A DNA stretch of 64,000 nt from Natrinema thermotolerans DSM 11552 (lineage in GTDB: Archaea; Halobacteriota; Halobacteria; Halobacteriales; Natrialbaceae). Shown here in pieces: positions 14,231-16,998 of the stretch (positions are counted from its first letter, which is position 1; each line of letters starts with the position of its first letter). The notes below the pieces were generated by a model, which worked only from the letters and a program-made list of their open reading frames with translations, was not told the DNA's origin and ran no database searches. A program made the translations under genes and the position numbers. The stretch covers positions 48,540 through 112,539 of the forward strand of contig AOIR01000055.1 in NCBI GenBank assembly GCA_000337115.1. Direction: 5' to 3'.

Positions 14231-14343
14231 ATCCGCCGCTTGCTTCGCTCCGGTCGGGAGCGGGCGACTCGAGTCGCGCCGGTGTTCCCGTTCGGTAGGC
14301 GAACTCCCTCGCTTTTTTGCCCGATGGGCCACATTCCGTTCTA

Positions 14344-16212
14344 ATGACCACCGAGAAACGCTCCGGAAATCGAAACGAGTCGGTCGCGGCCGATCGAACG
14401 GGGGATTCGAATCGGGACCGATCGGTGGCCCTCGACGAGGCCGAAACGCTGTTTCACGCCGTCGAAGAGGCCGTTTTTCTGATCGATGTCGAACGGACGG
14501 AGCGGGATCTCGAGTTCAGGTTCCGACGCGTCAACCCGGCCTACGAAGCGGCCACCGGCCTGACCGACGCGTCGGTCACTGGAACGTCCCTGCAGGACGT
14601 ATTCGAGTTGCGTCCCGACGGCGAGACGCTCCGCCGTTACCGGGAGTGTGTCGAGGGCGAGGAGCCGGTCGACGTCAGCGCGACGCGTTCGTTGCCGGTC
14701 GGGCAACGAACCGTCGAGACGACGCTGCACCCGGTCGACTCGAGCGGTCCGGTCCGCCGGATCGTCGGCATCGTTCGTGACATCTCCGAACGGGCGACGA
14801 CGGAGCGTGAACTCGAGCGGAACCGGGACCTCCTGACGAAAGCGGAGGACCTCGCGGCCGTCGGCGGGTGGGAACTCGATCTCCGAACGAACGATCTCCG
14901 GTGGACCGACGGGACGCGAGCGATCTTCGAGGTCGACGACGACTACGAGCCCACGCTTTCTGACGCGATCGAGTTCTATCGGCCCGCCGATCGGCCCCAG
15001 ATTCGGGCGTTCGTCGAGGCATGTCGACGCGACGAGGAGTCGTACGACGGCGTCCTCGAGATCGTCACGGCCGAGGGGAACGAACGATGGGTCCGGACGG
15101 TCGGGGAACCGGTCACGGAGGACGGAACCGTCGTCGCGTTACGCGGCGCGATTCAGAACGTCACGGCGCGGAAGGAACGCGAGCGGGAGTTGCAGCTCTT
15201 CCGAAAAGCGGTCGAACAGGCCGGTCACGGGATCATCATCACGGACCGCAGCGGGACCATCGAGTACGTCAACCCGGCCTACGAACGGGACACCGGATAC
15301 AGCCGCACGGAGGCCGTCGGCCTGAACCCGCGTATCGTCAAGTCGGGAAAGCACGACGAGGCGTTCTACGAGGACCTCTGGGACACGATCGGCTCGGGCG
15401 AGATCTGGGAAAGCGAACTCGTCAACCGGCGCAAGTCCGGCGAACTGTACCACGTCGACCAGACGATCGCACCGATCACCGACGACGCGGGCGAGATCAC
15501 GCATTTCGTGGCCATCGAGACCGATATCACGGCACAGCGGTTGCGGCGACAGCGTCTGGGCGTCCTCAACAGAATCCTGCGACACAACATCCGAAATGCG
15601 ATGAACGTCATCAAAGGGAACGCGACCCGGCTCCGGACGGTGTCCGCCGAAGAGGACCGTCACACCGCCGTGACGGCGATCGAAGAGCAGGCGGCCGACC
15701 TCCTCAAGATCAGCGAGAACGCGGCCGCCGTTCGGGACCTGTTCCAGCGGGAGCGAGACGCCGACGCGACCTGCGACGTCGGCACGATGGTCTCAAAGCT
15801 GGCGGCCGACTTCGACGAGCAGTACCCGGACGCCGCGATCACGGTCACGGCCCCCGATTCCGTCCCGGTACAGGCCGACGACCGCCTGGAGATGGCGATC
15901 CGGGAAGCGATCCACAACGCCGTCAGTCACAACGACCGCTCCGTCCCGGACGTGACGGTCGGCGTCACCCCGCCCGAGGCGACCGACAGCGGTGACTGGG
16001 TCGACATCGTGATCGCCGACAACGGCCCCGGCATCCCGGCGGAAGAACGACCGATGATCGAACTGGGTCACGAGACGCCGCTCGTCCACGGCACCGGCCT
16101 CGAGCTGTGGCTCATCTACTGGGTGACGAAGAACGTCGGGGGCGAACTGCGGATCAGCGAGAACGAGCCGCGTGGCACTATCGTCACGCTCCGGGTTCCG
16201 CCGGCGACGTAG
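14344..16212 (+). CDS. Three-PAS sensor histidine kinase
   Basis: 622 aa from ATG 14344. PAS domains lie at about 30-140 (VEEAVFLIDVERTERD), 155-275 (LAAVGGWELDLRTNDLRW) and 280-400 (ERDTGYSRTEAVGLNPRIVKS). The H-box is L-R-H-N-I-R-N-A-M-N-V near residue 425, the haloarchaeal HNxRN form. The ATPase N box is IREAIHNAVSHND, the G1 box ADNGPGIP, and G2 HGTGLELWL. No transmembrane helices, so it is a cytoplasmic sensor, and no receiver or output gene is next to it. It is an orphan; partner and signal are unknown. Confidence 0.9.
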   Translation: MTTEKRSGNRNESVAADRTGDSNRDRSVALDEAETLFHAVEEAVFLIDVERTERDLEFRFRRVNPAYEAATGLTDASVTGTSLQDVFELRPDGETLRRYRECVEGEEPVDVSATRSLPVGQRTVETTLHPVDSSGPVRRIVGIVRDISERATTERELERNRDLLTKAEDLAAVGGWELDLRTNDLRWTDGTRAIFEVDDDYEPTLSDAIEFYRPADRPQIRAFVEACRRDEESYDGVLEIVTAEGNERWVRTVGEPVTEDGTVVALRGAIQNVTARKERERELQLFRKAVEQAGHGIIITDRSGTIEYVNPAYERDTGYSRTEAVGLNPRIVKSGKHDEAFYEDLWDTIGSGEIWESELVNRRKSGELYHVDQTIAPITDDAGEITHFVAIETDITAQRLRRQRLGVLNRILRHNIRNAMNVIKGNATRLRTVSAEEDRHTAVTAIEEQAADLLKISENAAAVRDLFQRERDADATCDVGTMVSKLAADFDEQYPDAAITVTAPDSVPVQADDRLEMAIREAIHNAVSHNDRSVPDVTVGVTPPEATDSGDWVDIVIADNGPGIPAEERPMIELGHETPLVHGTGLELWLIYWVTKNVGGELRISENEPRGTIVTLRVPPAT

Positions 16213-16335: not shown

Positions 16336-16500
16336 TCAGTCCTCCCGATCGGGCGTCAACAGGGCCGGCGGCAGCGAGCAGCCACAGGGTTCGACGGTGC
16401 CGGTTGACGGCCCCGTGGCGACGACGAACGCGACCGGCTCGCCGCAGGTCGGACAGTCGGGAAACGGCGTGTCGTCGCCGTCCTCGGGATCGCTACTCAT
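16336..16500 (-). CDS. 54-aa zinc-ribbon microprotein
   Basis: An ATG at 16500 opens a 54-aa frame (MSSDPEDGDDTPFPDCPTCG...) ending ...LLTPDRED. It has two Cys pairs, C-P-T-C-G and C-G-C, 22 residues apart, a compact zinc ribbon. Codons end overwhelmingly in G or C, and the acidic leader and tail match other small haloarchaeal zinc-finger proteins. Two Tyr-free hydrophobic strands (AFVVATG, SLPPALL) complete the fold. The family name is not recognised. It is convergent with the histidine kinase. Confidence 0.75.
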   Translation of the reverse strand: MSSDPEDGDDTPFPDCPTCGEPVAFVVATGPSTGTVEPCGCSLPPALLTPDRED

Positions 16501-16611
16501 CGGCCCGCCTCCGCGGGTTCTCGAGCGAGTGGAGACGGACTCGAACGTGGTCGTGACTGGCGATGCGGCTGTCGTGCGGGACGTTTATATCCCGGTAGAA
16601 CGAACTGAATC

Positions 16612-16706
16612 ATGGCTTTCGAACCCTCTCGGGTTGGAAGCCGAGTCTCGGGTGCTAGGTCCACCCGGGACGTTTCGAGACGTCCCCTGTCGGAGATCGG
16701 CTTCCG
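16612..16706 (-). ncRNA. Candidate structured noncoding RNA (strand uncertain)
   Basis: A 9-bp stem (GGAAGCCGA at 16636-16644 with TCGGCTTCC at 16697-16705) closes a three-way junction. It holds CGGGTG-N7-CACCCG (about 16649-16667) and GGGACGT-N6-ACGTCCC (about 16667-16686). A fourth hairpin, AACCC-TCTC-GGGTT (16622-16635), is stacked directly against the outer stem. On the minus strand a TATA-like GATATAAG (16730-16737) sits ~28 nt before the first base of the stem, giving a leaderless RNA starting GGAAGCC. On the plus strand TTTATA (near 16584-16589) sits ~26 nt before 16612, so the direction is unsettled. It is not a tRNA: there is no TTCRANY-closed T arm. No credible ORF explains it. Confidence 0.45.
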
Positions 16707-16740
16707 TGCTAATTGTTGGTTAGTGGTCACTTATATCTAC

Positions 16741-16998
16741 TGCTGGCGTGGTGGAATCTGTCGGCGTTCGCTCGAGGCGGTCGGGCGGAAATAGCGCTCG
16801 AGAACCGATGTCTCCGAGGGGAAGTGTGCTGCTATCGTGGCAACACGGAGTAGCCACGCCCTCCCCAACCGATTCGCTCGCTCCAGAGTCGCTCGCTCAT
16901 CCCTCGCACGGTTTCGAACTGTGTCTCACTTCCGCTCGGCACAGTTCAGCGCGCGCCACCGCATGGCGGTTCGTCGATCCGCTGTGAGAGAGCAGTCG
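16741..16998. other. Gene-free stretch with a dispersed repeat copy
   Basis: No coding frame with haloarchaeal codon use is visible. The main content is the 57-bp repeat at 16824-16880. Around it are GC-rich sequences with repeated CTCGCTC-type words (16875-16900), often seen in haloarchaeal intergenic regions. The right end runs into the PHP-phosphoesterase stop. Confidence 0.5.
16824..16880 (-). repeat. Dispersed 57-bp intergenic repeat, copy 1
   Basis: On the minus strand this reads CGAGCGAATCGG...ACGATAGCAGCACAC. It matches the plus-strand stretch 22822-22878 at about 48 of 57 positions without gaps. Both copies lie between genes. The central words GTGGC, CTCC, TGTTGC and ACGATAGCAG are shared. 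It is a dispersed element of unknown role, not an inverted-repeat transposon by itself. Confidence 0.65.

Follow-up and report, generated by a model that had tools for sequence, protein, structure and literature searches.

A structured haloarchaeal 5' leader RNA proposed to act as a two-state switch of translation

To our knowledge, archaea have few established cis-regulatory RNAs, and most translation in haloarchaea is believed to begin without leaders or Shine-Dalgarno elements. In some translational riboswitches the outer helix P1 provides a switching strand, and the purine riboswitches are aptamers built as three-way junctions. Three lines of published work come closest to the locus that we describe here. 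The Thermococcus fluoride (crcB) riboswitch is described as the only experimentally determined natural archaeal riboswitch (PMC8241225), an S15 leader candidate has been listed in Halobacteria (PMC7247131), and two papers deal with CPxCG zinc-finger micro-proteins of Haloferax volcanii (PMC11241148, PMC6562870). We found no description of the present leader element in a literature search whose scope left out bioRxiv and most subscription papers.

Fold, strand and position of the element

The element lies in a window of 64,000 nucleotides from Natrinema thermotolerans (the whole stretch of DNA that was analyzed). Its features, in the order of the proposed transcript, are the following.

16729-16742, minus strand: promoter TATA region CAGTAGATATAAGT proposed for the leader transcript, based on the TATA-like box in the family; predicted transcription start at about 16706
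16614-16706, minus strand: putative structured 5' leader RNA with three-way junction, GNRA-type hairpin and pre-AUG segment, based on the fold and homologues (best own-genome match E 4.9e-19)
16697-16705, minus strand: 5' strand of the outer stem P1, GGAAGCCGA, the predicted very 5' end of the transcript, based on the predicted fold and on double changes in all 9 P1 pairs of the alignment with distant members
16667-16686, minus strand: hairpin A of the junction, GGGACGU..ACGUCCC, with a conserved GAA(A) on the 3' side of its loop, based on fold and covariation
16650-16666, minus strand: hairpin B of the junction, GGGUG..CACCC, its stem nearly invariant, based on fold and covariation
16636-16644, minus strand: 3' strand of P1, UCGGCUUCC, the putative switching strand, with the 5' end or the pre-AUG segment as partner
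16622-16635, minus strand: hairpin C, AACCC-GAGA-GGGUU, with a GNRA tetraloop, based on fold, covariation and loop counts
16614-16618, minus strand: pre-AUG segment AAGCC, which duplicates part of the 5' strand of P1 and can pair with the switching strand
16497-16613, minus strand: small ORF of 38 aa, MIQFVLPGYKRPARQ..., from the conserved AUG (ATG conserved in 114 copies), its TGA overlapping the next ATG
16577-16594, minus strand: palindrome CGGGATATAAACGTCCCG inside the small ORF, the site of a 'plus-strand TATA' and a possible fifth hairpin, based on a pairing test
16336-16500, minus strand: CPxCG zinc-ribbon micro-protein of 54 aa, the second operon gene, with CPTCG and CGC motifs

The original prediction had drawn a three-way junction with a 9-bp closing stem, two inner stems and a fourth hairpin, and had stated that the element is not a tRNA. 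The fold contains all of these parts: a closing stem of 9 bp, with one bulge and four further pairs, two inner hairpins and a fourth one. Positions 16612-16706 have a minimum free energy of -47.7 kcal/mol when read as the minus strand (z = -4.2) and of -47.0 kcal/mol as the plus strand (z = -3.2); none of 200 shuffled sequences was as stable. A chance origin of the fold is excluded by the homologues, because there are five to six copies in the own genome and up to 33 in relatives, and because they show massive compensatory change. ARAGORN likewise recognized no tRNA or tmRNA fold in the stretch. No Rfam 15 family reached its gathering score on the element, and the best sub-threshold matches had only E 0.98 (a local region) and E 0.47, neither of them convincing. 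The RNA family is new to Rfam 15.

Further copies in the N. thermotolerans genome were found by blastn, and some match at E<=1 turned up in 83 of 100 relatives, most of those from the same genus having several strong matches. A covariance model (R1) detected five copies in the own genome at E<1e-5, where the total is five to six, and matches in 72 of 125 genomes of Natrialbaceae, covering 21 of 29 genera. Many Natrialbaceae have 5-33 matches, and three genomes have 26, 29 and 33 at E<=0.5. Covariance models built on more diverse alignments (R2 and R3) reach other families of Halobacteriales, including 39 of 116 and 33 of 119 genomes in two families, and give 12-19 matches in several genomes of one genus outside Natrialbaceae. 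Among 393 genomes searched across the phylum, none outside Halobacteriales was listed with a match, and the inspected named plasmid records with a Natrialbaceae-type element all belong to Natrialbaceae.

Not all host-genome copies are intact. A decayed copy (L005, G000:C51:69126-69162) has kept the palindrome and a CPxCG gene and lost the leader RNA and the ATG of the small ORF. Two weak leader-like matches (L154, G000:C53:230149-230255, and L155, G000:C51:73817-73920) precede a different small ORF (MQS..ATGDKAPVRPTDQYIATP...) and show a near-perfect hairpin ahead of its ATG.

Because consensus folding on MAFFT alignments misaligned the copies, we used covariance-model alignments instead. In 101 copies aligned in this way (A4), 94.5% of the cells are standard pairs and 20 of the 30 pairs show double changes. 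The covariation score of A4 is 0.260, compared with 0.110 for shuffled and at most 0.064 for slid controls (0 of 500 shuffles as high), and that of the alignment with distant members (A6) is 0.385, compared with 0.131 and at most 0.08; both alignments were fitted to the structure and the controls have to be read accordingly, but the margin is large. Compensatory changes at homologous loci had been set beforehand as the test of the fold, and A6 passes it with compensatory double changes in 26 of 30 pairs. The minus strand reads as the RNA strand, because the four-nucleotide loops of hairpin C are GNRA in 40 of 56 cases on this strand and in 0 in the reverse sense, and because G-U pairs outnumber A-C pairs there by 131 to 64.

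On the minus strand, a TATA box points to the first base of the outer stem (16706), where the RNA had been expected to start. This expectation is supported by the family: 109 of 114 Natrialbaceae-type copies have a TATA-like box 18-32 nt ahead of the RNA, and most loci in other families have their own TATA-like box about 30 nt upstream of the fold. At the other end, the ATG of the small ORF (16611-16613) follows right after the fold, and a conserved ATG lies within a few nucleotides of the fold end in 114 Natrialbaceae-type copies. In other families the ATG behind this fold belongs to unrelated genes, namely those for SWIM-type zinc proteins, other Cys-rich small proteins and two families of 101 aa and 70 aa. 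For instance, the model match in Haladaptatus caseinilyticus reaches to locus base 1499, and an independently annotated SWIM gene has its first base at 1501, 2 nt after the fold.

Since the AUG lies a few nucleotides past the fold in nearly all copies, ahead of unrelated genes, the element is better read as an mRNA leader than as a stand-alone small RNA. The comparison supports the view that it forms the complete 5' untranslated leader of a minus-strand mRNA, that is, a conserved structured domain in mRNA 5' leaders such as riboswitches have, and the genomic context appears to speak against a transcript of its own. The earlier suggestion of an undescribed haloarchaeal small RNA thus stands as to novelty, conserved structure and minus strand but not as to a free RNA. 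The accompanying statement that no ORF explains the conservation does not hold: a conserved start codon directly abuts the fold on the minus strand, and an ORF therefore does matter.

Two alternative helices ahead of the start codon

We consider it probable that the leader exerts a riboswitch-like, two-state control over translation of the minus-strand mRNA, with the 3' strand of P1, which closes the three-way junction, as the switching strand. This strand would be shared by two alternative helices. Paired with the 5' end of the transcript, it would complete the junction, leave the pre-AUG bases free and turn translation on. Paired with the pre-AUG segment, it would extend hairpin C up to the start codon and turn translation off. 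A ligand or protein that stabilizes or disrupts the junction would set the balance between the two states. We infer the switching and its direction, and likewise the transcription start and the regulation.

The alternative helix is predicted to form once P1 is blocked. With the first nine bases barred from pairing, at least four of the five pre-AUG bases are paired in 87% of the Natrialbaceae-type and 89% of the distant copies, compared with 28% and 44%, respectively, in the minimum-free-energy folds. The P1 state is favored over the P1-blocked fold by about 6 kcal/mol on average; this value, like the other energies, comes from a model for standard salt at 37 C rather than for molar KCl.

We also compared the complementarity of the switching strand and the pre-AUG segment within and between sequences. 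In 53 distant copies it is 5.60 within and 4.52 between sequences (sd 0.13; 0 of 500 swaps as high), and in the near set of 111 copies 5.12 and 4.98 (sd 0.03; above all 500 swaps); these swapped-strand controls, like the shuffles, leave shared ancestry in place. Four weak model matches that look false (L167, L188, L202 and L206) were excluded from the far-set swap test. The covariance models do not contain this pairing, and therefore the selection of hits did not impose it. Several types of switching strand and pre-AUG segment recur, including GGUCUUCC/GAAGACC, GGGUUCC/GAACCC and GGCUGUC/CAGCC. In some copies the alternative helix is imperfect (pre-AUG GGTTGCC or GTCACC). Taken as comparative evidence, these patterns support both alternative helices; the second covaries independently, is predicted to fold when P1 is blocked, and may serve as an expression platform that excludes the first.

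A leader that does not switch would explain part of these observations. Its compact 5'-terminal fold would guard the mRNA from 5'-3' decay or aid initiation without a Shine-Dalgarno element, and the pre-AUG repeat would be incidental or would tune initiation. The fold does span the distance from the expected transcription start to the AUG, P1 is the favored state by the margin given above, and a purely stabilizing leader would also show the first helix. It would not show the second, however, and covariation between the pre-AUG strand and the switching strand extends over unrelated types. Moreover, an extra C before the AUG tends to be absent where its partner G is absent. We regard this alternative as unlikely, though the strongest of those considered.

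Downstream genes and mobile-element context

In Natrialbaceae, the window included, the mRNA would code for a short basic peptide (from the small ORF) and for the CPxCG micro-protein. In the window, the TGA of the small ORF overlaps the ATG of the micro-protein gene as ATGA. For 101 of the 103 copies with a recognized second gene, this gene starts at -1 (64 copies), -5 (30), -8 (5) or +4 (2) from the stop of the small ORF; the start nearest to the stop was chosen, which favors short distances, though not to the degree observed. The small ORF and the micro-protein are probably translationally coupled. The micro-protein shows the CPxCG characteristics (<70 aa, paired CxxC/CxC motifs) and is predicted to bind zinc. 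Neither it nor the small-ORF peptide matched a Pfam or NCBIfam family above cut-off, and in two closely checked Natrialbaceae plasmid records neither of the small genes behind the leader is annotated. A scan of genome contigs with the micro-protein as query returned three loci only. Codon-position entropy revealed no excess variation at the third position of the small ORF; peptide-level selection is therefore not demonstrated, and the constraint likely acts at the nucleotide level.

The common-neighbor search around the Natrialbaceae copies gave no single partner gene besides the micro-protein. We recognized no ribosomal-protein gene downstream of the leader in the loci read and saw no ligand-type gene context (transporters, biosynthesis) around the leaders. 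In five copies (L094, L100, L126, L133 and L136) the first ORF is fused to a CPxCG domain or itself has one, and some of them then have a second CPxCG gene; L094 is a fusion of the small-ORF and micro-protein frames. A PAS-type histidine kinase-like gene (window 14317-16212) is convergent to the micro-protein gene, and a protein cluster possibly holding such regulators is found beside 10 of about 114 copies, perhaps by chance.

Elsewhere in Halobacteriales, the genes behind the leader code for other small proteins, most of them Cys-rich, and a divergent HTH gene often lies opposite; plasmids and at least one halovirus are among the carriers. Of 46 distant loci, 42 have a divergent acidic ORF that begins upstream. 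Blast clustering, with Pfam also checked, placed 31 of these ORFs in one HTH-like cluster and 5 in another small cluster that has halovirus relatives. Halovirus HJTV-4 carries the leader (E 2.3e-5) ahead of a small Cys-containing protein. Humcor1 and a Halorubrum tailed virus gave no model match; in both, the leaders of the divergent genes form a three-way junction on folding, and behind it lies a GCTGTC/GACAGC repeat whose halves could pair into a hairpin that touches the ATG. PhiCh1 and ChaoS9 have a related HTH protein and no model match, and DNA pattern scans of viral contigs gave chance matches only. In many distant loci (L189-L236) the stretch from the TATA box to the RNA start contains a palindrome such as CCAATTGCTACGTAGCAATTGG, a possible operator for the divergent HTH protein. 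One family of SWIM zinc-finger genes is repeated on Haladaptatus plasmids, with as many as 22 members on one megaplasmid.

The nature of the downstream proteins bears on autoregulation, in which the encoded Cys-rich zinc protein or a basic leader peptide would bind the junction and repress translation of its own operon. Cys-rich proteins follow the leader in 30 of 46 sampled loci from other families, compared with 16 of 117 background ORFs (a rough control), and the recognized second genes in Natrialbaceae are of the CPxCG type, which was itself the search criterion. But several leader-bearing genes, those of the 101-aa and 70-aa families, encode proteins without cysteines, and one common protein-RNA recognition would therefore need another explanation. 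We think autoregulation of this kind improbable.

The small ORF also bears on the promoters. The original prediction placed TATA-like boxes at both ends, one per strand. Both motifs are present, the plus-strand TTTATA at about 16584-16590, but this one is better read as in-frame sequence: it belongs to the palindrome CGGGACGTTTATATCCCG at 16577-16594, within the small ORF, and it is altered in diverged copies. The TATA-like core is TATAAA in 62 copies and CATAAA, CTTAAA or ACAAAAA in most others. The exact palindrome occurs in the own genome at family loci only, and allowing two mismatches adds one decayed family locus and one other match. Over 87 distinct copies it pairs in 80.7% of cells, compared with at most 45% when slid, with a GC/AT exchange at one pair and U-G/C-G at another. 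The motif is explained better by a short in-frame hairpin or DNA palindrome than by a conserved plus-strand promoter, although a plus-strand transcript may exist.

In a further account, the minus-strand promoter would yield a free, trans-acting small RNA, and the zinc-protein operon next to it would have a promoter of its own at the palindromic TATA. A TATA-like GATATAAACG stands ahead of the micro-protein gene in many copies, which this account would explain, yet the AUG abuts the fold for many unrelated genes and the motif changes in diverged copies, and we give the account little chance. A DNA-level repeat without RNA function (a mobile MITE-like or REP element, or a palindromic operator between convergent promoters) would suit the copy number and the palindrome but is scarcely credible given the compensatory changes, the GNRA loops, the G-U bias, the fixed position relative to the AUG and the deep divergence of the copies.

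Two-state control by the leader is thus the reading that we prefer. A wider version of it, which we put forward tentatively and hold to be somewhat short of an even chance, is a natural class of two-state RNA switches of haloarchaea and their mobile elements, in which the closing strand of a 5'-terminal three-way junction would alternate between the transcript's 5' end and the bases that adjoin the AUG. The class would govern early or regulatory genes of viruses and plasmids that lie next to a divergent HTH regulator, and in Natrialbaceae it would have multiplied to dozens of micro-protein operons.

Comparison with known systems

A class of leaders that combines strong covariation with a switching helix before the AUG, and that reaches about 30 copies in some genomes, would offer a direct and genetically testable case of RNA-based control of translation in haloarchaea. 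It would also connect the Cys-rich micro-proteins, whose annotation is poor, with genes of plasmids and control regions of haloviruses.

Like the S15 leader candidate of Halobacteria (PMC7247131), the element is a cis-acting, structured haloarchaeal 5' leader with covariation support. It is set apart by the genes downstream, which here encode small Cys-rich or plasmid- and virus-type proteins instead of a ribosomal protein. The second gene resembles the CPxCG micro-proteins of H. volcanii in being <70 aa with paired CxxC/CxC-type motifs, whereas we saw no description of the leader RNA, the overlapping small ORF or the multi-copy cassette in the papers found (PMC11241148 and PMC6562870 among them). 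With the Thermococcus fluoride riboswitch (PMC8241225) it shares the proposed role of an archaeal 5' leader in controlling translation, while structure, genes and lineage differ, the present element being found only in Halobacteriales in the phylum-wide search.

The closest likeness is to translational riboswitches. The haloarchaeal element differs from them in that it has no known ligand or Shine-Dalgarno element, matches no Rfam family at gathering score, and places its alternative strand against the AUG itself. It resembles them in its P1-closed three-way junction, in a P1 3' strand that would be shared with a downstream hairpin reaching the initiation region, and in its dispersal over many operons.
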